Source: a virus
DNA length: 39,417 nt
Strand: one strand, 5' to 3'
IMG/VR virus record: IMGVR_UViG_3300025598_000081
Coordinates: 1 to 39,417 of that record
Shown one piece after another: positions 3 to 39,417 of this stretch. The translations under genes were made by a program, and so were the position numbers. Under the pieces are notes generated by a model. The model saw nothing but the letters and a program-made list of their open reading frames with translations. It was not told the DNA's origin and did no database searches. Each line of letters opens with the position of its first letter. The first letter of the stretch is position 1.

Positions 3-662
3 AATTTAGATAGAGTAACCATCATTTCTGTTACCGGAGTAGATCCACAAGATTCTTTATGGGCTTTAGAACATTCTTGTAAAGACATAAAATTTGCAGC
101 AGCAAAATTAATAACTCCACACGATATAAAATCTAATAAAGGAGTAGAAATAATAAAATCTGGTCCAATAGATTACATAGAATATAGTAGATTTTTAGTT
201 TACGATTTATGGAAATATATTGATTCTGAATTTGTTTTAATAATTCAATCTGATGGGTTTGTTGTAAATCCATATCATTGGACTGATGAATTTTATAATT
301 ACGATTACATAGGCGCACCATGGCCAAATCCTACTGATGATTTTTCTTATAGAGATGAAAAAGGAAATGTTAGATCAGTTGGAAATGGAGGATTTAGCTT
401 AAGATCAAAAAAACTATGCGAAGCTCCTACTAAATTAGAAATTCCTTGGAAATCTTATTTTGGATTTTATAATGAAGATGGATTTTTTTGTGTGCATCAC
501 AGATGTCTTTTTGAAAGTTTAGGATTTAATTACGCACCTAAAGAAATTGCATGGAAATTTTCTCAAGAAGTTCCTATGGATGATTTAGATTTTGAAATGC
601 CTTTTGGATTTCATGGAAAAAATCATTATTATTATAATTACTATAAAAATAAAAAAATATGA
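3..662 (+). CDS. DUF5672 family protein, probable glycosyltransferase (5' end cut by window)
   Basis: The reading frame is open from the window edge and carries 219 residues of the C-terminal part. Visible DUF5672 hallmarks are LDRVTIISVTGVDP at the start, EYSRFLVYDLWKYI, the acidic DGF inside IIQSDGFVVNP, DYIGAPWP, and the glycine-rich VGNGGFSLRS. The family is known from phages and bacterial polysaccharide loci and is thought to be a GT-A-like sugar transferase; the activity here is inferred. The stop overlaps the start of the next gene (ATGA), so the two are probably translationally coupled. It heads a run of five predicted glycosyltransferases. Confidence 0.85.
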   Translation, partial: NLDRVTIISVTGVDPQDSLWALEHSCKDIKFAAAKLITPHDIKSNKGVEIIKSGPIDYIEYSRFLVYDLWKYIDSEFVLIIQSDGFVVNPYHWTDEFYNYDYIGAPWPNPTDDFSYRDEKGNVRSVGNGGFSLRSKKLCEAPTKLEIPWKSYFGFYNEDGFFCVHHRCLFESLGFNYAPKEIAWKFSQEVPMDDLDFEMPFGFHGKNHYYYNYYKNKKI

Positions 663-1570
663 TAGCTACTGAAATGTATAAAGGACAAGGTTTAGGAAAT
701 CAATTATTTTGTTACGTTACAACCAGATGTATAGCTGCAGATAGAAATTTAGATTTTGGTGTCATTTCTCCAGAAAATATCGCAAATAACATTCACTCTT
801 CTCATGGAATATATTTTATGAATTTGTATTTAGGAGAAAAAATAGAACCTATTTCACTAATCAATAGTTATCAAGAAAAAGAGGTGAGAATGTTAATACA
901 TGATAAACCAAATGGTCATGATGAAATTATTGGATGTGATATAAGACTTTTTGACGAAGATTTATTAAGAGTACCTGACAACTGCAAAATAGATGGATTG
1001 ATGCAATCAGAAGATTATTTCTATCATAGAAAAGAAGAAATAAAACAGTGGCTAAAAGTTAAACCAGAACACGATTGTTACGATTATAGTAGTGACGATA
1101 TATGTGTATTGCACATGAGATATTATGGGAATGATCCAAATGTTCAACTTCCTAGAGATTATTGGGTTAGATCTATATATCACATGCTAGCCATAAATCC
1201 AAACATGTCTTTTTTAATAATCACTAATGATATTGAGTATACAAAAAATCTACTTCCTGAATTAGCGGATAATGTAATAAGTTTTGATATGGGAAAAGAT
1301 TATTCTATAATAAAAAATGCTAAGTACTTAATATTGGGAAATTCTAGTTTTCCTTTCTTTGCAGCTTGGACAAGTGAAGTAAACAAACTTACTATCGCTC
1401 CTAAATATTGGGCTAGATATAATATATCCGATGGATATTGGTCTCTTGGATGTAATCTATATAGAGATTGGTATTACATGGATAGAAATGGCACTTTACA
1501 AACTTACGATGAGTGTAAAAGAGAATTAGAGCTATATATCGCAGAACACCCAGAAATGTATAAAAAATAA
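659..1570 (+). CDS. GT11-like (alpha-1,2-fucosyltransferase-type) glycosyltransferase
   Basis: 303 residues, the usual length for GT11. The N-terminus has the nucleotide-sugar loop GQGLGNQLF (residues 9-17). The family HxR motif is present as HMRYYGND (152-159), and the C-terminal signature GNSSFPFFAAW (227-237) matches the conserved NSSFSWWAAW block. GT11 enzymes transfer fucose from GDP-fucose to galactose-type acceptors; the donor and acceptor here cannot be told from sequence. The gene overlaps DUF5672 by four bases and precedes a GT17-like gene, so it probably works with them on a shared glycan of virion, DNA or host surface. Confidence 0.8.
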   Translation: MIATEMYKGQGLGNQLFCYVTTRCIAADRNLDFGVISPENIANNIHSSHGIYFMNLYLGEKIEPISLINSYQEKEVRMLIHDKPNGHDEIIGCDIRLFDEDLLRVPDNCKIDGLMQSEDYFYHRKEEIKQWLKVKPEHDCYDYSSDDICVLHMRYYGNDPNVQLPRDYWVRSIYHMLAINPNMSFLIITNDIEYTKNLLPELADNVISFDMGKDYSIIKNAKYLILGNSSFPFFAAWTSEVNKLTIAPKYWARYNISDGYWSLGCNLYRDWYYMDRNGTLQTYDECKRELELYIAEHPEMYKK

Positions 1571-1580
1571 AATTAAACTA

Positions 1581-2432
1581 ATGAAAGTAATAGACTCATT
1601 TATATTTTTTAATGAACTTGATTTGTTAGATATAAGACTTAATATATTAAATGATAAAGTTGATAAATTTTTATTGGTAGAATCTACCGTCAGTCATGTA
1701 GGTAAAGAAAAACCACTTTACTACAACGATAATAAACATCTATTTGAAAAGTTTAATCATAAAATAGTTCACTGTATTATAGACGATACTCCGAATTCTT
1801 TTGATGAAGTAAGAAAAAGGTTTCAATCTCCAAAAGATGAATTAGAAAAAAACATATTGATTCAATGTTTAACAACTTCAAACATGAATCATACAGAAGA
1901 TCAATGGTTAAGAGAATTCTATCAACATGAAAGTGTAAGAAGAGCAATGTTAATGGCTAATTTAGAAGATGAAGATGTGTGTTTTGTGTCTGATCTAGAT
2001 GAAATTTGGAATCCTGACAGAGAATATACAATTGATCCTTATAACGTAATTAAACTTAAACAACACGTTTATACATCTTTCTTAAATTTAAGAAGCGAAG
2101 AAGAGTGGTACGGAACTTATTATACTAGATATAAAAATATAAAAAATGCAAGCGCAAATCATTTAGACACAACGTCAAAAACTAAACATGTGTTTTTAGA
2201 CAACGGAGGTTGGCACTTTACTTTTCAAGGAGGATTAGACAAAGTAAAAATTAAAATAGAAAATTATGGTCACCAAGAATTTAATAATGATGATGTCAAA
2301 AATTTAATTCAATATAGATTAGATAATGGAATGGACGTATTAGGTCGACCACTTAAATGTGAAATAAGAGAAGATTTATTACCTAAATACTTAATAGATA
2401 ACAAAAAAAAATATACACACCTTTTTAAATGA
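1581..2432 (+). CDS. GT17-like glycosyltransferase
   Basis: 283 residues resembling glycosyltransferase family 17 (the beta-1,4-mannosyl-glycoprotein GlcNAc-transferase family). Visible marks are the N-terminal DSFIFFNELDLLDIRLNIL (residues 5-23), the VEST block (33-36), KPLYY, a QWLREFYQHESVRRAML helix, and the putative metal-binding SDLDEI (137-142). It begins ten bases after the GT11-like gene and overlaps the next GT2 gene by four bases. The sugar specificity is unknown. Bacterial and viral GT17 homologues are usually found in polysaccharide clusters, which fits this context. Confidence 0.85.
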   Translation: MKVIDSFIFFNELDLLDIRLNILNDKVDKFLLVESTVSHVGKEKPLYYNDNKHLFEKFNHKIVHCIIDDTPNSFDEVRKRFQSPKDELEKNILIQCLTTSNMNHTEDQWLREFYQHESVRRAMLMANLEDEDVCFVSDLDEIWNPDREYTIDPYNVIKLKQHVYTSFLNLRSEEEWYGTYYTRYKNIKNASANHLDTTSKTKHVFLDNGGWHFTFQGGLDKVKIKIENYGHQEFNNDDVKNLIQYRLDNGMDVLGRPLKCEIREDLLPKYLIDNKKKYTHLFK

Positions 2433-3568
2433 TAACATTTTGCATCCCTTCGAAAAATAATTTAAGGTATTTAAAACCTTGTATACAATCTATTAAAGAT
2501 AATTCTTATTACAAAGATAATGAAATATTAGTTTACGTAGATCAAGATAATGACGGAACTTGTGATTGGTTAAAGGATCAAGGAATTAGATTCATTAAAC
2601 ATGGTTATATTCATCCATTGGGAATCGGGCATGCTTATGATGAAATGTTTTTAGAAGCTAAATACGATTACGTAATCGCATTCCACGCAGACATGATATT
2701 AGGTCCAAATGCAGATAAACATTTACTAGATTTAAAAACTGATAATAATGTTGTATGCGCCACGCGAATAGAACCACCTCTCCATCCAGAAGGAATAGAA
2801 AAAATAGTTAAAGATTTTGGTATGTGGCCAGAGGATTTAAAAATTGAAGAATTTAATCAATTTGTAAAAGAGAATGGTAGTGATAAGATAACTAAAAGTA
2901 TCTTTGCTCCGTGGCTAATACATCGTGATCAGCATTTAGGACACGATCCCATATTCTTGTCTGTTTTTGAAGACGCAGACTTATTTAGAAGAATGAAATT
3001 AGCCGGATATGATCTAATTCAATCTTGGAATGCCATGGTATACCATCTAACTTGTAGAGGAGGTCAATTTGCTCACGCAGAAAAAATGGAAGATTTTCAA
3101 AAGAAGAGTGATGATTGGAATCAAAACAATACGATTTCAATGTACGAATATATTAGGAAATGGGGTGCATTTATTCAACACTCTAGCACATTAGATCCAA
3201 TACCAAATATTAAATACAATATAGGACTTGAAATAAAAAATTGTACTAATGAACAAGTGTTAAGTGTTGAACCGTATTTTGATCACATTAAAGTTAACAT
3301 AGATACTGAAGCTTATTGTAAGTATGTTAAACCATATACTTCATTTAATATACCATCTAAATTTGTAAATGAATTAACTGATGATATTATATTAACTGTT
3401 GATTATAATGATATGATCAAACCTGAAAATATGTTTCAAGCTTTAATAGGAAACTTACAAAGTCTAATTCATCATGATGCAGACGATTTAGGAATATATG
3501 AATTAGGACCATTTAAATTAAACATAAAGAAAAAAGAACCACAACAACTAAGATTAAAATTATGTTAA
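2429..3568 (+). CDS. GT2 family glycosyltransferase A, with extra C-terminal domain
   Basis: 379 residues. The N-terminal GT-A fold starts with ITFCIPSKNNLRYLKPCIQS. The usual DDGSxDGT becomes VDQDNDGT (residues 37-44), and HADM (86-89) is the DxD-type metal site. Conserved acidic and aromatic motifs follow (FEDADLFRRM, VYHLTCRGG). Residues beyond about 260 form a further domain shared with the next gene. This gene and the following one are clearly paralogous: both carry TRIEPPLHPEG and AGYxLIQS. The 3' end overlaps the next gene by seven bases. Confidence 0.88.
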   Translation: MITFCIPSKNNLRYLKPCIQSIKDNSYYKDNEILVYVDQDNDGTCDWLKDQGIRFIKHGYIHPLGIGHAYDEMFLEAKYDYVIAFHADMILGPNADKHLLDLKTDNNVVCATRIEPPLHPEGIEKIVKDFGMWPEDLKIEEFNQFVKENGSDKITKSIFAPWLIHRDQHLGHDPIFLSVFEDADLFRRMKLAGYDLIQSWNAMVYHLTCRGGQFAHAEKMEDFQKKSDDWNQNNTISMYEYIRKWGAFIQHSSTLDPIPNIKYNIGLEIKNCTNEQVLSVEPYFDHIKVNIDTEAYCKYVKPYTSFNIPSKFVNELTDDIILTVDYNDMIKPENMFQALIGNLQSLIHHDADDLGIYELGPFKLNIKKKEPQQLRLKLC

Positions 3569-4764
3569 CACAAAAAGACGTTACATTAGTTATACCTGCT
3601 TACAATAATTTAAGACATTTAAAAAATGCGTATGATAGTATTAAAAGAAACGCACCAGAAGTAAAAGTAATTTTATTAGATGATGGATCTACAGACGGTA
3701 CATTTGAATGGTTAAAATCTTTAGAACTCGATAAACAAATCAGTGTAATTTATAGATCAGAAGAAAGAGTAGGTCACACAATTTTATACGATAAAGGTAT
3801 GGTATTAGCTAGAACTTTAATTGTAGGAGTATTACATGCAGATATGATCATAGGTCCAAACTATATAGAGAACATACTTAAGCATTTAAAACCTGGTATG
3901 GTAGTATGTGGAACTAGAATAGAACCTCCTTTACATCCAGAAGGAAAAGAAAAAATTATTAAAGACTTCGGCATGGATTTCGATTCCTTAAATATTCCAG
4001 AGTTTGAAGAGTTTGTAATAAAATATCAAACAATGGTACAAGATAGTTTTTTTGATAATGGAATAAAAACTACTAAAGGCATGTTTGCTCCTTGGATTTT
4101 ATATAGGAAAGATTTTGATATGGTGGGAGGACATGATAGAATATTCGCACCTTTTCCTTACGAAGATTCTGATATATTCCAAAGATGGATGTTAGCGGGT
4201 TACGAATTAATTCAATCAAGAGATGCTCTTGTATACCATTTAACTTGTAGAGGACATCGATGGACAGAAAAAATAGGTCAAGACGACGCATATTTTCAAA
4301 ATGCTAGTAACAAATCCGCTAGAAACTATCTTAGAAAATGGGGAAGTTGGATTCAAAATGATGAATATCAACTACCCATTATTCCAAAGAAATATGATAT
4401 TGGAATTGTTTTACAAGGATCCAGTTATAATACTCTATTAATGGACATATTAGAACCATGGTGTTCGAACATTTACATAAGCGATGAAGATATAGTTTCT
4501 GAATATATTAAAAATGAGCAACCAAATACATTAATAGATCTAAAGAGTAAGTTCAAAATAAATGAAGAGCCTACAAACGACGTACTTCTTGTTATATCAA
4601 TAAATGAATTTGATAACAAATCAGCAGAAATGCTAAAGTATTTACAATTTACTATTGCGCAAGTTGATGAAATTGGAGATTATCAATTAGGAAGCATGAT
4701 TCTTAGTATTAGAAAAATGAATCCAATACAAATACCTATTGAACCACTATTTCCTACCACTTAA
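3562..4764 (+). CDS. GT2 family glycosyltransferase B (paralogue of the preceding gene)
   Basis: 400 residues. A canonical GT2 start TLVIPAYNNLRHLKNAYDSI is followed by LLDDGSTDGTFEWL (DDGSTDGT at 40-47) and HADM (92-95). It shares CGTRIEPPLHPEGKEK, APW, and VYHLTCRG with the upstream paralogue, and also its unusual C-terminal domain of about 110 residues. The pair probably arose by tandem duplication and then diverged. It overlaps the previous gene by seven bases and closes the glycosyltransferase cluster. Donor and acceptor are unknown. Confidence 0.88.
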   Translation: MLTQKDVTLVIPAYNNLRHLKNAYDSIKRNAPEVKVILLDDGSTDGTFEWLKSLELDKQISVIYRSEERVGHTILYDKGMVLARTLIVGVLHADMIIGPNYIENILKHLKPGMVVCGTRIEPPLHPEGKEKIIKDFGMDFDSLNIPEFEEFVIKYQTMVQDSFFDNGIKTTKGMFAPWILYRKDFDMVGGHDRIFAPFPYEDSDIFQRWMLAGYELIQSRDALVYHLTCRGHRWTEKIGQDDAYFQNASNKSARNYLRKWGSWIQNDEYQLPIIPKKYDIGIVLQGSSYNTLLMDILEPWCSNIYISDEDIVSEYIKNEQPNTLIDLKSKFKINEEPTNDVLLVISINEFDNKSAEMLKYLQFTIAQVDEIGDYQLGSMILSIRKMNPIQIPIEPLFPTT

Positions 4765-6531: not shown

Positions 6532-6942
6532 ATGGCAGACGAATATAAAGAAATACAATCAGCAGTAGATTCGTTATTAGGAGCAAAATCATCGATAAGA
6601 AGAAAAAAAAGAACTCAATCAGAAAGACGAAGAGAATTATTCTTCACATTAATAAATACCTTAGAAGAAACAATAGTAAGATCTAACATCGCGTACCAAG
6701 AGCTCCAGATCGATCTATTTAAATACGAAGATAAGTATATTCAGACAATAGATATGTTAATGATCTTGAGCTTTGGAGAAGCTTGCACAGACGTTATTAG
6801 TTTTTATCTATATGATAGGATGAATGATGATGGTACACTAAATGCCATGAAAACTACAGATGGCCAAGAAATATTGTTACAGAATCCTTACGATCTTTGG
6901 AATTTATTAGTTATGATGAACCCAAAAATAGATGAAGGGTAG
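6532..6942 (+). CDS. Hypothetical protein, helical, basic N-terminus
   Basis: 136 residues. An Arg/Lys patch (SSIRRKKRTQSERRRELFF, residues 25-43) is followed by long amphipathic helices. Its 3' end overlaps the HNH-type gene by 11 bases in another frame, so the two are likely translationally coupled. The basic patch could contact nucleic acid, but I do not recognise a family. Confidence 0.7.
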   Translation: MADEYKEIQSAVDSLLGAKSSIRRKKRTQSERRRELFFTLINTLEETIVRSNIAYQELQIDLFKYEDKYIQTIDMLMILSFGEACTDVISFYLYDRMNDDGTLNAMKTTDGQEILLQNPYDLWNLLVMMNPKIDEG

Positions 6943-7777
6943 GAGGAAGAAATACCAGAAGAAATTACCGTGGGAACAAAGTAAGGCATTAGGATTTCCC
7001 CATTTAGGTTTACAATTGACCGAAGACGAGATTAGGGATTCCATGGCCAATTCTCGTACTATAGCCGAAGCTTGTCGATACATGGGAATTAACTTCAAAA
7101 CTTGGGTTAAGTACGCAAGCATGTACATTGACCTTGAGACAGGAAAAACTCTCTACGAAATTCACAGAAAGTACGGCAATCCCAATGCACAAAGACCTAG
7201 AAAACACAAAGAAAATCTACCAAGACTTTATCAAAAACAAATAGACAATCTACTTACTTACAGAAAGTGGACTAGTCCTGCAAGGGTGGTGATTTTAAAG
7301 AAGATGCTAATCCTACACGGATTGCACAAAGAAGAGTGCGAACACTGTGGTTATCACGAAAAAAGAGTAAAAGACGGAAAGCAACCACTATTATTACACT
7401 TTGTTGACGGTGACCGCAGAAACTGGCAAATAGAAAATATCAGGTGGCTTTGTTACAATTGCTACTTCATTAATGTGTTTGACAGTTTTAGTGGACGAGT
7501 ACTAAGAAATATCCAATCGAGTCCACTTGTTGGTGATGAAACTTCTTTCGAGTCCAATTTACTATTCTACAATATAGACGAAAATGTGTTAAAAGAGATA
7601 GAAAAGATGCAAGCTTTCTTAGACGAAGGAAGATATAAACACGAAGAAGATTTAATCGATTATAAAAACCAAGAAGATCAAGATCTAATCGATTTACAAA
7701 ATATGGTACGCGAAATAAAGTACGAAAAACCCGATTTAGGTGACGATGAGAACCTACTTATAGATAGAAAAATTTAA
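6932..7777 (+). CDS. HNH-type zinc protein with N-terminal HTH-like region
   Basis: 281 residues. A basic N-terminus and an HTH-like helix pair (TIAEACRYMGINFKTWVK, residues 43-60) precede a zinc/HNH core: CEHCG (136-140), LHFVDGDRRNW (155-165), and CYNC (174-177). In typical HNH proteins this reads LHHxDGD and CxxCH. Here only one His remains in the first motif (H156, followed by Phe) and Tyr178 replaces the last His, so nuclease activity is uncertain. The C-terminal 70 residues are acidic and helical. It could be a homing-type nuclease or a DNA-binding protein with a degenerate HNH fold. Confidence 0.75.
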   Translation: MKGRRKKYQKKLPWEQSKALGFPHLGLQLTEDEIRDSMANSRTIAEACRYMGINFKTWVKYASMYIDLETGKTLYEIHRKYGNPNAQRPRKHKENLPRLYQKQIDNLLTYRKWTSPARVVILKKMLILHGLHKEECEHCGYHEKRVKDGKQPLLLHFVDGDRRNWQIENIRWLCYNCYFINVFDSFSGRVLRNIQSSPLVGDETSFESNLLFYNIDENVLKEIEKMQAFLDEGRYKHEEDLIDYKNQEDQDLIDLQNMVREIKYEKPDLGDDENLLIDRKI

Positions 7778-7810
7778 ATACGTAACTGGCTGATCCCCAA
7801 AGCCTGACTC

Positions 7811-7909
7811 ATAACTGATTGGTTTCCAATAAAAAAGTTCTCCATTGATAACCAACGAGTTATGATTGCTCCCTGCTTACATTCTGGCACAACTGATTGA
7901 TTTCCAATA
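7811..7909. promoter_or_regulatory. Operator-like repeat array 1 (three sites)
   Basis: Three copies of one motif occur here: minus orientation at 7811-7831 (ATAACTGATTGGTTTCCAAT), plus at 7843-7865 (CATTGATAACCAACGAGTTA and on), and minus at 7891-7909 (AACTGATTGATTTCCAATA). Each half contains the near-dyad ATTGGnAACCAAT. The shared block GCTCCCTGCTTAC (7868-7880) recurs at 30025-30037. The array lies directly upstream of the promoter at 7928-7960 in a 203-base gap without genes. Probably binding sites for a phage or host transcription factor. Confidence 0.65.
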
Positions 7910-7927
7910 GGCTTTTTTCTATTTGGA

Positions 7928-7960
7928 TTTTTTTATGTCAATATTGTGTCGTATATTTAC
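7928..7960 (+). promoter_or_regulatory. Promoter P1 (T-run to TATATTTAC)
   Basis: The element runs from a seven-T tract at the -33 position to TATATTTAC at 7952-7960. It matches the element at 15149-15181 in 32 of 33 positions. The spacing between the T tract and the TAnnTTT box fits Bacteroidota promoters. The downstream sequence TATATTCAATTA also recurs after other promoters in this window. It would drive the operon beginning with the GIY-YIG gene. Confidence 0.65.
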
Positions 7961-7980
7961 TATATTCAATTACCATCCAC

Positions 7981-8301
7981 ATGAGCAAAAAACGCACAGA
8001 TCGCAACCACATTATCTACGAAATCGTTAACACCGTTAATGGTAAACGTTACATAGGATTGACAGTTGCACGTGGAAGAGCATACAAAAAGAGTGTGTTA
8101 ATTCGTTTTCACCAACATTGTATGCGAGCGTTAACTGAAAATAAAGATTGGGCATTATACAATGATATGCGTAAGTACGGACACGATGTGTACGACGTAT
8201 CAATAATAGATATCATATGTGGTAAAGCTGAAGCACATCGTATAGAAACTAATCTTATTCATAGTTACGAATATAAATTAAATTCAACCATTAAAAAATA
8301 A
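7981..8301 (+). CDS. GIY-YIG endonuclease domain protein
   Basis: 106 residues from ATG 7981. A longer frame from TTG 7897 would run through the promoter and is rejected. The GIY-YIG core is visible: HIIYEIVN (10-17) supplies the GIY-type strand, KRYIGLT (22-28) the YIG strand, Arg42 the catalytic-Arg position, and Glu89 in HRIETNLI the metal-binding Glu. Such stand-alone domains act as homing or DNA-degrading nucleases in phages. It is the first gene after promoter P1, so it is probably expressed early. Confidence 0.85.
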   Translation: MSKKRTDRNHIIYEIVNTVNGKRYIGLTVARGRAYKKSVLIRFHQHCMRALTENKDWALYNDMRKYGHDVYDVSIIDIICGKAEAHRIETNLIHSYEYKLNSTIKK

Positions 8302-8306
8302 AAGTT

Positions 8307-8768
8307 ATGACAAACTCAAGAAATTTTCAAGTAAACGATTTTATATCAATTAAGTACAATTACAATTATGGTATGGGCTCAGGATCTCAAGGATCTGTGG
8401 AAATTACAGGTATTGTTAAAAGCATAGATCTATCAAAGATGACGTTTGAATTGTTAGCTACAGGTAAAAGAAAAGCTGAGAGCTATTATTTTTCTAGTAT
8501 TAGCAGTATTACCATTCTTGAAAAACCCAAAGTGCCAGTAGAAAATGCACTAGCTGAAATAACAAAAATAGGTGAAGGTCGCTACGTAATTTCTTTTAAA
8601 GGTAAAGAATACGAAGCTGCAAAAATCGCCTACGCAGGTAGATTAAGAGTGTTTAATAGAGTTAAAGGCGCGAGAGGTATGAAACGTGGAAATATTATTT
8701 GTAACGAGTATATGTTAGGAATTAAAAGTCTTCGTAGAGACATAGAAATGGGTAAAAAAATTGCGTAA
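8307..8768 (+). CDS. Hypothetical protein, SH3-like beta-rich
   Basis: 153 residues beginning five bases after the GIY-YIG stop, with the leader AATAAAAGTTATG. The N-terminal half (FQVNDFISIKYNYNYG, VEITGIVKSIDLSKMTFELL) looks like a small beta-barrel of the SH3/KOW type. The C-terminal half is basic. A nucleic-acid or ribosome-related role is possible but unproven. Confidence 0.7.
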   Translation: MTNSRNFQVNDFISIKYNYNYGMGSGSQGSVEITGIVKSIDLSKMTFELLATGKRKAESYYFSSISSITILEKPKVPVENALAEITKIGEGRYVISFKGKEYEAAKIAYAGRLRVFNRVKGARGMKRGNIICNEYMLGIKSLRRDIEMGKKIA

Positions 8769-8788
8769 TAAAATTAAAAATAAAAATT

Positions 8789-8998
8789 ATGACAAACACA
8801 CAAATCGAATTGTTTAGCAAAGTTTTAGATACTAATTGGGAATTAAAAGAAGCAGTTGACAATGAGAAGTATTTTCAAGCTGTGTCTTTAAAAGATCAAT
8901 TAGATCAGTTCATTGAAGAGTTAAGAGAATCTATGGGTGTAGAGGCATACGATACATTCATGAGTAACGGTAGAAAAATGTTTGCTTCAAAAAACTAA
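8789..8998 (+). CDS. Small hypothetical protein
   Basis: 69 residues, predicted all-helical (KVLDTNWELKEAVDNEKYFQ, LKDQLDQFIEELRE). The charge pattern and the AVSLKDQLDQ segment resemble a UvrB/UvrC-motif-like helical hairpin, but the match is weak. Leader AAAAATTATG. Member of the P1 operon. Confidence 0.65.
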   Translation: MTNTQIELFSKVLDTNWELKEAVDNEKYFQAVSLKDQLDQFIEELRESMGVEAYDTFMSNGRKMFASKN

Positions 8999-9009
8999 AA
9001 AATAAAAAT

Positions 9010-9102
9010 GTGTTTACAGTCTATCTTATTATTTGTTTTGTATCGCTTGCGATATTAGCAGTGTGTTACATTAAAGCAGAACACCATCAAGATTGGGATT
9101 AA
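9010..9102 (+). CDS. Putative single-pass membrane peptide
   Basis: 30 codons from GTG 9010: a hydrophobic helix (FTVYLIICFVSLAILAVCYI) followed by a charged tail ending HHQDWD. An overlapping ATG at 9008 gives only a short closed frame. The GTG start and small size keep confidence low, but the membrane-helix plus polar-tail layout is typical of small phage membrane genes in this window. Confidence 0.4.
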   Translation: MFTVYLIICFVSLAILAVCYIKAEHHQDWD

Positions 9103-9122
9103 TAAAATTAAAAATTAAAGTT

Positions 9123-9344
9123 ATGACAATACAAGTACCAAAATCAGTAAAAAGTTATTCAGAATTAGATAGTATAAAGAACGATATCAAGTGTCAAATG
9201 ATCGGTTCTTTTAGAGGTCATTTAAAAGGTATTCTATATTCAGGATTATTAGACAAAAATGAAATTTCAAAAAAACGAACAGAACAGTTTTTAATCGAAA
9301 TGGAAGAAATATGGAACGCTCAGTACGAGATTATCGTTAGTTGA
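9123..9344 (+). CDS. Small hypothetical protein upstream of a hammerhead ribozyme
   Basis: 73 residues from ATG 9123, which carries the strong local leader AAATTAAAGTTATG. An in-frame TTG at 9093 is less likely. The protein is helical and charged with no recognised domain. Its TGA stop lies five bases before the hammerhead ribozyme, so self-cleavage would leave this gene at the 3' end of the upstream RNA fragment. Confidence 0.65.
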   Translation: MTIQVPKSVKSYSELDSIKNDIKCQMIGSFRGHLKGILYSGLLDKNEISKKRTEQFLIEMEEIWNAQYEIIVS

Positions 9345-9348
9345 CATA

Positions 9349-9400
9349 GGTTAACTGATGAGACTTCAATAGTCGAAACCGCTATCACGCGGTATTAACC
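9349..9400 (+). ncRNA. Hammerhead ribozyme (type I, open stem I)
   Basis: All conserved parts are present in order. Stem I is GGTTAA (9349-9354) pairing with TTAACC (9395-9400). The core is CTGATGA (9355-9361). Stem II is GACT (9362-9365) with AGTC (9371-9374) around loop TCAAT. The second core is GAAA (9375-9378). Stem III is CCGC (9379-9382) with GCGG (9389-9392) around loop TATCAC, extended by A9378-T9393. The nucleotide before cleavage is A9394, so the site is GUA with cleavage between 9394 and 9395. Every stem is fully complementary. It lies entirely between two genes, 5 bases after one stop and 15 bases before the next ATG. Confidence 0.9.
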
Positions 9401-9415
9401 AATAAAATTAAAGTT

Positions 9416-10381
9416 ATGAATTTATTTCAATCAGTCAAGTCATTTATCAATAGTCGTGAAGTGAATAGCACGTTTACTACAAAAGAATTACATGCTGCTA
9501 TGAACGGTATTGAAAGTGTAACAGCATGGAAAAGACACGGTAACGAATTCTACAGAACAAATACTTACAGATCTTATTTAAGACGTTTAGGTTTTGTTAA
9601 TAGAATTAAGAACGGTCTTTGGATGGTAGTAGCACCGATACCAAATTGGTTCGATAGTGGCACTGCAAACTTTTTATTATTTCCAGCCTATAGATTTGAA
9701 AACGGAAAAACAATAAGACAGTCTGAATACAATGGAGAAACTAGAGCTCAGATCGAATTGAAATTAGAAAATCATTTTAAACATTATAAAAATATGAAAC
9801 AAAAGTTGGAATTCAAAGTAGGCGACAAAGTAAAAATAGTTGGAAAGACAGGTTATCACGGATTTGAAATGCAAGAAATTGTAGAAGTTGTTTTCGTTGA
9901 TGATGAAACTTTAGAGTGCAAAGGAAATGGTGGTGGAAAAAATATATTTCAACAAACAATAGATAAAAATGATGTGGTACTGTACGACGAAGTAAACATT
10001 CCAGAACCCTTTGAGAAAGAAGTACGACTATCTAGCGCCGAGGAATTGGCAAGAGAATTGGTAGGTGACGGTAAAACTCCTAACGTGTGGTTCGTTACTT
10101 GTGGCGCTTACATAATGATTAGAGAAGATTTTGATTGTAGCGACTACGAATTATTGGAAGGTTATTCAGAAAAAGATTCAGAAACTTTTGGACCTTTTTA
10201 TTCTTACCAAGAAGCTTGCGATAAATACGATGATATAGATTTGGATCCACACGATGGCATTGGTCAAGTGTTTATTGAAGACAGATTAATTGGTACAGTT
10301 AAAGAGAAGTGCCTAGAAAAGGTAATTAAAGTAGATTATAGTTATAACGAACACGATGATTCAAAATTATATAAAAAATAA
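9416..10381 (+). CDS. wHTH + KOW/SH3-like domain protein
   Basis: 321 residues. Residues 1-75 look like the winged-helix domain seen in many phage proteins (SFINSREVNSTFTTKELHAA, TYRSYLRRLGFVNRIKNGLW). Residues about 131-175 form a KOW/SH3-like barrel (FKVGDKVKIVGKTGYHGFEM). The C-terminal 120 residues are acidic, with a segment typical of counter-defence or regulator proteins of unknown fold. Its start lies 22 bases downstream of the ribozyme cleavage site, so a processed mRNA would begin with a short A-rich leader. The domain order resembles the protein at 16178-17125. Confidence 0.7.
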   Translation: MNLFQSVKSFINSREVNSTFTTKELHAAMNGIESVTAWKRHGNEFYRTNTYRSYLRRLGFVNRIKNGLWMVVAPIPNWFDSGTANFLLFPAYRFENGKTIRQSEYNGETRAQIELKLENHFKHYKNMKQKLEFKVGDKVKIVGKTGYHGFEMQEIVEVVFVDDETLECKGNGGGKNIFQQTIDKNDVVLYDEVNIPEPFEKEVRLSSAEELARELVGDGKTPNVWFVTCGAYIMIREDFDCSDYELLEGYSEKDSETFGPFYSYQEACDKYDDIDLDPHDGIGQVFIEDRLIGTVKEKCLEKVIKVDYSYNEHDDSKLYKK

Positions 10382-10439
10382 ATTACACAAAATTAAGATC
10401 GAAAAAATAAAGTAATCATAAAAATTAAAAATTAAAGTT

Positions 10440-10913
10440 ATGGGATTAGACATGTATTTACACAAGAAAACTAACGTTAAGAACTACAGCTTTTATTCAG
10501 ACAAAGAAACTACGTTAGTAACAGTTACAAGAAACGGAGAATCGGTAAAGTCTATCGATCCTTCAAAAGTATCAATGATAGAGCAAGAAGTTGGGTATTG
10601 GAGAAAGTTCAATGCTCTTCATTTGTGGTTCGTTAATAATGTACAAGGAGGTAAAGACGATTGTGCAGAGTACTACGTTAAGAAAGATAAAATGGAAGAA
10701 TTACTACAAGTATTAAAAGAAGTAAGTAACGATCATTCAAAAGCACCAGAATTATTGCCTACTGGAAATGGATTCTTTTTTGGAAATACAGATTATGATG
10801 AGTGGTATTTCAATGACGTTAATAGATCAATAATGATATTTGAAGACATATTGAAGACTTCCATTAGTGAAGACGATTTGTATTCTTCTTATCACTATCA
10901 AGCAAGTTGGTAA
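10440..10913 (+). CDS. Conserved phage protein (MGLDMYL family)
   Basis: 157 residues of a protein type that recurs widely in phages: it starts MGLDMYLHKK and contains EVGYWRKFNALHLWFVNNVQ, the acidic CAEYYV, and LLPTGNGFFFGNTDYDEWYF. No biochemical function is established as far as I know. The conserved aromatic and acidic residues suggest an enzyme or nucleotide-binding protein. Leader AAATTAAAGTTATG. Confidence 0.8.
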   Translation: MGLDMYLHKKTNVKNYSFYSDKETTLVTVTRNGESVKSIDPSKVSMIEQEVGYWRKFNALHLWFVNNVQGGKDDCAEYYVKKDKMEELLQVLKEVSNDHSKAPELLPTGNGFFFGNTDYDEWYFNDVNRSIMIFEDILKTSISEDDLYSSYHYQASW

Positions 10914-10942
10914 AATATTTTAATAAACTAATAAAAATAATT

Positions 10943-11263
10943 ATGCAATTTAAATCTTTATACCCACCCATTTGCTTTACTAGTCCAAGTACGAATATCA
11001 TCTACATTGTGGCAGGAGGAATTTATCAACAAGTGGACAGACTGTACGATTGGTTAGAACTAAAAGAAATGTGGACTCCAATTGTGTACGATAAACCTTA
11101 TCAGAAACCTGTGATAGTAGTAGAACCTATCGAGTATTTTGTTGAAGGTACTAAAGGCAACAAGTACGAAGTTGTAAATGATAATGGAGTGTGGACGTGT
11201 TCGTGTCCTGCACACGGATTTGGAAGAGGCAAAGATTGCAAACATATAAAATCTTTAAAATAA
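10943..11263 (+). CDS. SWIM-type zinc-finger protein
   Basis: 106 residues from ATG 10943. A longer frame from TTG 10907 would overlap the preceding gene. The C-terminus has a SWIM-like CxCx(n)CxH zinc motif: Cys86, Cys88, Cys99 and His101 in WTCSCPAHGFGRGKDCKHIK. The N-terminal half is uncharacterised. SWIM domains bind DNA or proteins; here it is probably a small nucleic-acid-binding accessory protein. Confidence 0.75.
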   Translation: MQFKSLYPPICFTSPSTNIIYIVAGGIYQQVDRLYDWLELKEMWTPIVYDKPYQKPVIVVEPIEYFVEGTKGNKYEVVNDNGVWTCSCPAHGFGRGKDCKHIKSLK

Positions 11264-11269
11264 AAAGTA

Positions 11270-11689
11270 ATGAATAAAGAATTTATACCATACGAACAAG
11301 CATTATCTTTAAAAGAATTAGGTTTTGATGAACCTTGTTTTGGTTGGTATCGGTCGTCACTAATACCAAGTAATTTTACCGAGTATTTTTTAGAGACAGA
11401 ATTTGGTATGAATGAAAGTCCAAGTGATTGGGTCAATAGTAATTTTTTAGATAAAGCGTGTAGTTCTCCACTATATCAACAAGCATTCAGATGGTTTAGA
11501 GAGAAGTATGGACTATATTCATACATAGAAACAGTTTTTGTAGTAGGTGCAGCTTCTCCTATAAAATATGATTACGTCATATTAGAAAATAATGAGGAAG
11601 AAGTATTTTATACAAATATGCCATACCATTCCCATGAAGAAGCAGAACTTGCTTGTCTTAAAAAATTAATTAAAATAGTAAAACAATAG
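11270..11689 (+). CDS. Conserved phage protein, tandem copy 1
   Basis: 139 residues, beginning MNKEFIPYEQALSLKELGFD and containing PLYQQAFRWFREKYGL. The C-terminal EEAELACLKKLIKIVK helix is shared with the next gene. This protein type is frequent in phages of Bacteroidota; its function is unknown. The next gene is a diverged tandem duplicate two bases away. Confidence 0.75.
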   Translation: MNKEFIPYEQALSLKELGFDEPCFGWYRSSLIPSNFTEYFLETEFGMNESPSDWVNSNFLDKACSSPLYQQAFRWFREKYGLYSYIETVFVVGAASPIKYDYVILENNEEEVFYTNMPYHSHEEAELACLKKLIKIVKQ

Positions 11690-11691
11690 TT

Positions 11692-12102
11692 ATGAATAAA
11701 GAATTTATACCATACGAACAAGTATTAGCGCTAAAAGAGTTAGGTTATGATGAAGAGTGTTTTGCATATTATTTTACTACTAATGGTAAAAATTGGGAGT
11801 TTGCGACTAAAAGCGAATTTGATGGAATAAATGAAACATTAGTTATTGGTGATAAGTTTATATTATCTGCACCACTATACCAACAAGCATTTAGATGGTT
11901 TAGAGAGAAGCATAAGTTAAGGAGTTTCGTAGATGTTAGAGTTTATGATGTGGATAGCCCTAATGAATGGATATATGATTATACAATGAAGATGGGTAAT
12001 GGAGTAGATACTCAACCTTTTTTCAGCAGAGACTTTGATACCTACGAAGAAGCAGAACTAGCTTGTCTTAATAAATTAATTGAATTAATAAAAAAGAAAT
12101 AA
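11692..12102 (+). CDS. Conserved phage protein, tandem copy 2
   Basis: 136 residues. Same family as the previous gene: FIPYEQVLALKELGYDEECF, PLYQQAFRWFREKHKL and YEEAELACLNKLIELIK align directly, while the middle region has diverged. The stop overlaps the next ATG by one base (TAATG). Confidence 0.75.
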   Translation: MNKEFIPYEQVLALKELGYDEECFAYYFTTNGKNWEFATKSEFDGINETLVIGDKFILSAPLYQQAFRWFREKHKLRSFVDVRVYDVDSPNEWIYDYTMKMGNGVDTQPFFSRDFDTYEEAELACLNKLIELIKKK

Positions 12103-17166: not shown

Positions 17167-17829
17167 ATGAAGTTAAAATTAGAAAAAGGTCAAAAGTTGT
17201 GGTTCACTAGCGATACTCACTACAATCATTCTAACATTTGTAAAGCGACCACTGAGTGGACCAACGCAACTACTCTTAGAGATTTTGATAGTTTAGAGCG
17301 TATGAACCAAACTTTAGTTGATAATATCAATAAAGTAGTTGGTCAAAATGATATATTATTTCACTTAGGTGATTGGAGTTTCGGTGGATTTGAACAGATT
17401 GAAAAGTTTAGAAATAAGATTGTGTGTAAGAACGTTCACATTATTACCGGTAATCACGATCACCACATTGAAAGCAACCGAGAAGACTGTCGAATGCTAT
17501 TTAGTTCTGTAAATAAGTACTTAGAACTAAGTGTTAAGTGGAATATTGGAATTCCTTTACTTAACGAACGATGTGAACAAAATTTTATATTAATGCATTT
17601 TCCTATTGCGAGCTGGAATAACATGTCAAGAGGATCAATTCATTTACACGGTCACGTTCACTTAACTAAAAACCAACGTATAGGTAAAGGTAGAATGATG
17701 GACGTAGGAGTTGAAGGTAACGATTTTAGTCCCATCGAATTAAGAGACGTGTTATCGTTATTACGTAAGCGTCCAATTAAATCTTTGTTAGAAGAAGATC
17801 ATCACGAAATTATAGAACGGTATCAATAA
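17167..17829 (+). CDS. Calcineurin-like metallophosphoesterase
   Basis: 220 residues with the five metallophosphoesterase motifs: DTH (16-18), GD (68-69), GNHD (95-98, followed by HH), His144, and GHVH (162-165). All metal ligands are present. This type occurs in many phages; candidate activities are phosphodiesterase or phosphatase on nucleotides or RNA ends. A second enzyme of the same superfamily is encoded at 19164-19925. Confidence 0.88.
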   Translation: MKLKLEKGQKLWFTSDTHYNHSNICKATTEWTNATTLRDFDSLERMNQTLVDNINKVVGQNDILFHLGDWSFGGFEQIEKFRNKIVCKNVHIITGNHDHHIESNREDCRMLFSSVNKYLELSVKWNIGIPLLNERCEQNFILMHFPIASWNNMSRGSIHLHGHVHLTKNQRIGKGRMMDVGVEGNDFSPIELRDVLSLLRKRPIKSLLEEDHHEIIERYQ

Positions 17830-19163: not shown

Positions 19164-19925
19164 ATGAAAACAGTAGTTATTTCTGACGTACACGGTAGAT
19201 CTGTATGGAAATTAATCACTCGCATGGAAAATGCAGATAGAGTTATTTTCTTAGGTGATTATTTTGATTCATACGAAATTTCAGCAGCCGAACAAATATA
19301 CAATTTTCAAGAGATTATTAATTTTAAAGAAACTTCGTTTACAAATTCAGGAAAATCTGATCAACATAAAACAAAAGTTATCTTATTAATCGGTAATCAT
19401 GATTATGGGTATTTTAGTGGAATCGATGGTACTAAAACTTCAGGCTATCAAATTAACTTAGCTCCAAGCATTAATATTGTACTAGAAGAGAATAAGCATC
19501 ACATGCAAATGGCTTATCAATTTGATAAGTTCTTATTCACACACGCAGGTGTCAGTGAAGTGTTTATGAATGACATATTTGGAATAAATGAATGGAAGAT
19601 TGAGAATCTTGTATCAGATCTTAACGATTTGTTCAAGTACAAACCCCAATCATTTATGTTTAATACGGCAGACAGGATGGGTTTTGGAGATTATGAACAT
19701 CAATCACCAATTTGGATTAGACCAAGAAGTTTAATGAAAGCTGGTAAATTGGACAGAGAATTAAAGAAGCATGTTATTCAAATTGTTGGACACACGAAAC
19801 AAGACAAAATAGATATTAAAGGTAAAGCAACTGGAAATAGATATTATTTTACTGACACACAAGAAACATCGGGAGAATATTTAGTTATCGAAAACGGTGT
19901 TGTAAAAATCGGCAATACTAGATAA
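19164..19925 (+). CDS. Metallophosphoesterase (calcineurin-like)
   Basis: 253 residues with DVHG (8-11), GDYFDS (31-36), GNHD (77-80), a later LFTHAG and GHTKQ (C-terminal). This arrangement is close to serine/threonine-phosphatase-like and ApaH-like phage phosphatases. Starts four bases after the membrane protein. Substrate unknown. Confidence 0.87.
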   Translation: MKTVVISDVHGRSVWKLITRMENADRVIFLGDYFDSYEISAAEQIYNFQEIINFKETSFTNSGKSDQHKTKVILLIGNHDYGYFSGIDGTKTSGYQINLAPSINIVLEENKHHMQMAYQFDKFLFTHAGVSEVFMNDIFGINEWKIENLVSDLNDLFKYKPQSFMFNTADRMGFGDYEHQSPIWIRPRSLMKAGKLDRELKKHVIQIVGHTKQDKIDIKGKATGNRYYFTDTQETSGEYLVIENGVVKIGNTR

Positions 19926-39014: not shown

Positions 39015-39417
39015 TAACATTTAAAGAATTATTAATTGATATAAATGCTTGTGAAGAAGCTAGACTGTGGGCTAGTGATAGAACTATTGAAGAAGTTTTA
39101 AGGGATAGTTGGAGAGGAGATTGGTTATTATGGTTGGCTAAAAAATTAGACTTACCACTAAATAAGTTGACGTTAGCTAAAGCTAGATGTGCAAAAACTG
39201 TCATTCACTTAATGAAAGACCAAAGAAGTATAGATGCCGTTAATATAGCAGAAAAATTTGGGCTAGATGAATGTTCTTTAGAAGAACTTAATGCTATTAC
39301 TTCTGCTTCTGCTGCTGATGCTGCTGCTGCTGCTTATGCTTCTGATGCTTATGCTTCTGCTGCTGCTTCTGCTGCTGATGCTGCTGCTGCTGCTTATGCT
39401 TCTGATGCTTATGCTTC
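39011..39417 (+). CDS. Alanine-rich tandem-repeat protein, Imm5-like N-terminus (3' end cut by window)
   Basis: 135 residues visible. The N-terminal half has CEEARLWASD, WRGDWLLWLAKKLDLP and AKTVIHLMKDQRS, the pattern of phage proteins related to the putative immunity domain Imm5. From about residue 99 it becomes SAADAAAAAYASDAYASAAA repeats, each encoded by an exact 60-base unit. The C-terminus lies outside the window. Confidence 0.65.
   Translation, partial: MITFKELLIDINACEEARLWASDRTIEEVLRDSWRGDWLLWLAKKLDLPLNKLTLAKARCAKTVIHLMKDQRSIDAVNIAEKFGLDECSLEELNAITSASAADAAAAAYASDAYASAAASAADAAAAAYASDAYA
39311..39417 (+). repeat. 60-base coding tandem repeat
   Basis: The unit beginning GCTGCTGATGCTGCTGC at 39311 repeats at 39371 without a mismatch up to the window end, in frame (20 residues per unit). 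Codons are nearly all GCT, TCT, GAT and TAT, a sign of recent expansion by slippage or unequal crossing-over. Confidence 0.85.

Follow-up and report, generated by a model that had tools for sequence, protein, structure and literature searches.

A type I hammerhead ribozyme between two phage genes, one of a widespread gene-junction class and predicted to process mRNA

Hammerhead ribozymes that flank genes in prophages and phages were described by Perreault et al. in 2011, together with the idea that they process mRNA, and the prophage ribozymes were found to self-cleave in vitro, while one from Agrobacterium did so in E. coli (PMC3088659). What hammerheads do in bacteria and phages has been described as an open question (PMC6155905). 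The motif that we report here lies at positions 9349 to 9400, on the plus strand, of the window, by which we mean the whole stretch of 39,417 nucleotides of viral DNA that was analyzed. As hammerheads between genes of phages and bacteria and the processing idea itself are already published (PMC3088659, PMC6155905), this motif is an added member. It is like the ribozymes of the 2011 study in kind, in phage setting, and in gene-flanking position, but the emphasis of that study is on prophages with a linked integrase, on type II forms, and on pseudoknots (PMC3088659), whereas the window's phage has one type I copy, in which stem I has 6 bp and ends at an A.A mismatch. An earlier sequence-only reading of this DNA had called an intergenic type I copy unusual; this was too strong, given that gene-flanking prophage hammerheads with a proposed processing role were published in 2011 (PMC3088659) and that at least 120 viral stretches carry the pattern.

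The type I hammerheads of Schistosoma mansoni and of newt satellite DNA have the same strand order, with stem I open and stems II and III closed, and probably share with 9349 to 9400 the region in which stem I would contact loop II, although their host and their role are different (PMC6155905). The theta ribozymes of gut phages are likewise small, self-cleaving, and involved in phage RNA processing, but they have an HDV-like fold and act at tRNA 3' ends, and are thus neither hammerheads nor part of an mRNA leader (PMC10879173).

All elements of a type I hammerhead can be read directly, in order, from the plus strand. Stem I has 6 bp (GGUUAA/UUAACC, 9349 to 9354 with 9395 to 9400) and is followed by the catalytic core box CUGAUGA (9355 to 9361), which the covariance model described below also matches. 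Stem II, taken from the minimum free energy (MFE) fold and the class alignment, has 4 bp (GACU/AGUC, 9362 to 9365 with 9371 to 9374) and the loop UCAAU. The core box GAAA (9375 to 9378), supported by reading, fold, and covariance model, consists of GAA (9375 to 9377) and an A that pairs with U9393, and stem III, supported by the fold and by relatives, has 5 bp (ACCGC/GCGGU, 9378 to 9382 with 9389 to 9393), that is, 4 bp plus the A15.1-U16.1 pair, and the loop UAUCAC. The core residues C3-U-G-A-N-G-A, G-A-A-A, U16.1, and H17 are all present; the stems of 6, 4, and 5 bp surround them with 0 mismatches; and an open stem I with loops closing stems II and III is the type I permutation. The site triplet is GUA (9392 to 9394), with A at H17, and the hammerhead mechanism would place the cleaved bond after A9394 (9394 to 9395), with a 5'-OH at 9395.

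Stem I is bounded on its 5' side by an unpaired A (9348, forming A.A with 9401) and on its 3' side by an unpaired AA (9401 to 9402), both plus strand and conserved in the class. In S. mansoni and newt type I hammerheads, stem I is longer and is interrupted by an internal loop or a bulge. Stem I of 9349 to 9400 ends at 6 bp, and the unpaired A bases that border it probably make the tertiary contact with loop II, a proposal derived from known type I structures (PMC6155905) and compatible with the A.A flank and the U-N-A start of loop II, both of which are class-conserved.

The MFE fold of 9345 to 9405 is exactly the hammerhead fold (-14.7 kcal/mol, z -3.5; 0 of 200 shuffles equal it). A strict type I descriptor finds a single site in the whole window, at 9349 to 9400, and no further type I, II, or III hammerhead was found there, loose settings included; on an order-2 Markov null, both strands, the type I descriptor returned 0 sites in 5.9 Mb. 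Judged by its sequence, 9349 to 9400 is a genuine type I hammerhead of an already known kind. The complete motif that had been proposed, with its two cores, its stems, and its GUA site, is confirmed by direct reading, by the MFE fold, and by an independent covariance model, and its type I identity is also backed by class-wide covariation and by two phage clades in which stems and core are unchanged.

A comparison with the Rfam hammerhead families, suggested earlier as a check in which a missing match would count as refutation, gave no match to the window at the gathering threshold, and permissive thresholds gave no usable match to 9349 to 9400. The core boxes do match RF00008 (Hammerhead_3) at 20.9 bits and RF03152 (RAGATH-1-hammerhead) at 20.6 bits, far below their cut-offs of 48.5 and 56.3, and RF00008 has an open stem III, whereas stem I is open here. 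When Rfam 15 was run at the gathering threshold on 13 loci (100 kb) with many clear hammerheads, there was again no match. As Rfam is silent on the whole class, its failure to match the window is uninformative: Rfam cut-offs miss short phage gene-junction type I hammerheads, and standard annotation consequently overlooks such ribozymes.

A pattern scan of viral contigs, which required the core boxes, two stem I pairs, and GUH, returned at least 120 stretches, compared with 17 in the entire viral collection for a complemented (reversed-order) control pattern. Among the matches listed, 122 of 138 distinct ones have all three stems, and the other 16 are mostly near misses. The covariance model (R1) was built from 51 phage hammerheads, none of the window's family, and matches the window with 65.3 bits (E value, 1.3e-14); the same model has five matches in one contig of 20.6 kb (locus L128) and three in another. 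These data place 9349 to 9400 in a widespread class of phage gene-junction type I hammerheads, defined here by sequence and position. One blast match, to microvirus Dipodfec, lay in the capsid gene, had no covariance-model match, and was dropped.

The class has a uniform anatomy: stem I measures exactly 6 bp in 146 of 167 distinct sites, and in 132 of these 146 an A.A mismatch closes it, although the 5'-flank composition may partly reflect stop codons. H17 is C in 152 sites and A in 15, and loop II mostly starts with U-N-A, its commonest form being UCAAU, as in the window. Stretches of the GGUUAA-stem form are nearly missing from cellular genomes (2 in 257 Gb), and the class is present in cultured Flavobacterium and Pelagibacter phages. 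The Pelagibacter podoviruses Jormungand, Eistla, and HTVC168P (loci L171, L172, and L173) carry type I hammerheads that are unannotated, with two model matches in Eistla.

The stems covary across the class. In the alignment of 51 sequences (A2), two-sided changes occur in 12 of 16 pairs, in all three stems, and the covariation score is 0.771, compared with 0.175 for shuffled and less than 0.1 for slid alignments; the 100% pairing in this alignment is partly circular because the sequences had been selected for paired stems. A less circular set was selected only for sharing stem I, the core, and the GUA site with the window and contains 33 distinct matches, whose stem II and III sequences are highly diverse; stems II and III are both complete in 28 of the 33, and the other 5 are minor variants. 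The A.A flank is present at every one of the 28 full-stem sites, and leaders in this subset are 22 nt at the median. GUA together with the window's stem I also occurs in viral contigs outside the window's family.

This evidence is at the level of the class and does not come from 9349 to 9400 itself, since the stems are invariant within the window's family; the covariation that was to be sought in related phages is thus absent from the closest ones and present in the class, and it is also seen as a double compensatory change in stem II of cultured Flavobacterium elemoviruses. At one orthologous junction of these phages, elemovirus A 7-9A has GACU/AGUC as its stem II, and elemoviruses 14-1A (C) and 15-9B (A) have GGUU/AACC, the double change relative to 7-9A, as does elemovirus B. 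Elemoviruses D and F have GACU/AACC, with two pairs broken (A.C and C.A), a stem II that looks like a recombinant of the two alleles and that suggests that loss of the hammerhead is tolerated in some phages. The broken alleles lie at about 604 to 661 of loci L137 (elemovirus F) and L141 (elemovirus D), and A, B, and C are intact. Since intact and naturally broken ribozymes occupy the same junction in cultured phages, the role of the ribozyme can be tested in the laboratory.

Placement statistics were obtained from the 155 sites with sufficient flank. A reading frame of 50 or more codons ends no more than 30 nt before the ribozyme, or inside it, in 138, a gene starts 14 to 35 nt past the cut in 118, and both stop and start are present in 108, compared with 17%, 9%, and 1.9%, respectively, at random positions and with 8, 5, and 0 for the antisense strand at the identical places. 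Class sites lie on one strand in almost every locus. The leader has a median length of 25 nt (middle half, 22 to 28), and 93 of 149 class leaders contain a Shine-Dalgarno-like motif. In about 91 of 161 cases, the stop codon of the upstream frame falls within the ribozyme, often at the core UGA or the stem I UAA, and it appears from these sequences that the ribozyme body is itself often the gene junction, supplying the upstream stop codon in many class members. The downstream genes are short (median, 78 amino acids) and mostly of unassigned function; ardA is directly downstream in the 2011 study (PMC3088659), and anti-restriction proteins are encoded by 2 of 51 class downstream genes here (anti-restriction PHROG; best E value, 4.6e-58). 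In the literature searched, with subscription papers mostly outside it, we found neither a strict stop-ribozyme-leader-start architecture across a phage class nor the class in cultured Flavobacterium and Pelagibacter phages.

The locus in the window has the same architecture. The upstream gene (9123 to 9344, plus strand, 73 amino acids) probably starts at ATG 9123 and not at TTG 9093, as was first read, and its stop codon, TGA at 9342 to 9344, ends 4 nt ahead of the ribozyme. On the same strand, the downstream gene (9416 to 10381, 321 amino acids) starts at ATG 9416, which leaves the 71-nt gap after the stop at 9344 that had been correctly noted. A cut after A9394 would give the downstream mRNA a leader of 21 nt (9395 to 9415, plus strand), one less than the 22 bases first counted. 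The leader ends in AAAGTT-ATG, a common gene start leader in the window's phage, and its AAAGTTATG is found at 12 further window positions. No intrinsic terminator match was found in 8700 to 10500, and no sigma-70 or Bacteroidota promoter was found on the plus strand of the gap, which suggests that the flanking genes are probably cotranscribed. The 73-amino-acid protein has no Pfam match. The label of winged helix-turn-helix/KOW given to the downstream protein is unconfirmed, with no significant Pfam match and a useless AlphaFold model (pLDDT, 29.5). No homologues of the downstream gene were found in annotated phages, and when viral contigs were searched for distant homologues of each flanking gene, only the same six contigs that carry the downstream gene were returned. 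The next gene, 10440 to 10913, is phrog_7971, a family that also directly follows two other phage hammerheads.

The stop-start placement, the restriction to the sense strand, and the leader of about 25 nt across the class are a strong argument for mRNA processing at the junction. We consider it likely that this type I hammerhead is active and that its target, in cis, is a polycistronic phage mRNA. During transcription of the gene string from about 9123 to 10381, the RNA would fold and cleave its own bond between A9394 and U9395. This would give the upstream message a structured 3' end at a fixed position, with a 2',3'-cyclic phosphate directly behind the stem III hairpin, and would place the 321-amino-acid gene on an mRNA of its own that starts with a 5'-OH and the 21-nt leader containing AAAGTT-ATG. 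RNAs with 5'-OH ends evade decay pathways that begin at a 5' phosphate. The expected effect would be that the two genes become independent of each other in stability and in translation. An mRNA-processing site in an operon, as the sequence-only reading had it, is the best reading of the strand-specific class placement, the leader length, and the gap that is free of plus-strand promoter and terminator matches, while cleavage itself remains a prediction.

With the natural upstream sequence included, the predicted MFE structure is not the hammerhead but a competing 12-bp hairpin (9334 to 9345 with 9350 to 9361, plus strand) that would make stem I and the core inaccessible and is favored by 8.2 kcal/mol, an advantage matched by 1.3% of upstream shuffles. 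The upstream stop codon (9342 to 9344) sits in its 5' arm. This fold prediction may reflect chance, or it may reflect a translation-gated switch, in which the hairpin hides stem I and the core by default and is melted by ribosomes that translate the upstream gene as far as its stop codon, permitting or timing cleavage. If true, this would be a natural translation-gated mRNA switch whose self-cleavage reports translation of the upstream gene. The strength of the hairpin, the stop codon in its 5' arm, and a predicted hairpin of a different register in the second clade, where the upstream sequence differs, speak for such gating, but in that clade the advantage is just 3.6 kcal/mol and is reached by 12% of shuffles. 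Moreover, GUUAAC is self-complementary, so that chance hairpins arise easily, two sequence variants alone are known, and the other 144 class sites have a median competing-fold advantage of 0.5, so that the window is atypical and the hairpin is no rule of the class. We regard ribosome gating as rather unlikely. GUUGA at 9340 to 9344 (plus strand; AUUGA in the second clade), noticed on sequence inspection, is complementary to the loop II UCAAU and could form a pseudoknot, but such complementarity is not enriched class-wide (51 observed versus 40 expected of 128).

A less probable alternative to an active, mRNA-processing ribozyme, and one that we doubt, is an inactive or degenerate relic that has lost cleavage and kept its motif only because the clades are close. 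The six contigs that carry the downstream gene form two clades, in which stems and core are identical letter for letter, and just 5 of 94 4-fold sites of that gene differ between them, so that this perfect conservation is suggestive and, taken alone, not strong; broken alleles also do occur, in elemoviruses D and F. Against a relic, the region 5' of the ribozyme has diverged between the two clades by an indel and substitutions, yet 9341 to 9415 differs at 1 of 75 positions (C9388 to T, in the stem III loop), and core, stems, A.A flank, and leader all agree with the class consensus, at 65 bits.

It is very improbable that the ribozyme yields a small defined or circular RNA, as viroid-like and retrozyme hammerheads do (PMC6155905), because a single copy in the window and in an 83-kb relative leaves no second cut to release a unit, and because the motif lies between two genes, 21 nt ahead of an ATG. 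Two last readings, a fold that arose by chance in AT-rich intergenic sequence and an intrinsic terminator, are refuted for practical purposes, since the missing Rfam match that would favor chance is outweighed by the empty null scan, the class-model E value, and the stem I/GUA subset, and a terminator by the lack of a T-run and of any terminator match.

The window covers part of a larger lake phage. Its 83-kb relative encodes a DNA polymerase, a DnaB-like helicase, a UvsX-like recombinase, a ribonucleotide reductase (RNR), and GroEL. The helicase shares 57% identity with its counterpart in Flavobacterium phage immuto, a myovirus and the nearest cultured relative by this protein, which points to a host that is probably a Flavobacterium-like bacterium; the immutovirus has no hammerhead that matches the covariance model. 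With one hammerhead in the 39 kb of the window and, by the covariance model, only one in the 83-kb relative, there is no genome-wide processing scheme in this phage.

Elsewhere in the window, an HNH endonuclease gene adjoins a GIY-YIG homing endonuclease gene (6932 to 8301), about 1 kb upstream of the ribozyme. Adjacent small genes at 10907 to 12102 are apparently paralogous, and the blast pieces are reordered there relative to the 83-kb relative. A low-complexity GCTTATGCTTCTGATGCT repeat occupies 39332 to 39414, where a sub-threshold match to isrG is meaningless. Two calcineurin-like phosphoesterase genes are present (17167 to 17829 and 19164 to 19925), and four glycosyltransferase-like genes lie in a row at 659 to 4764.
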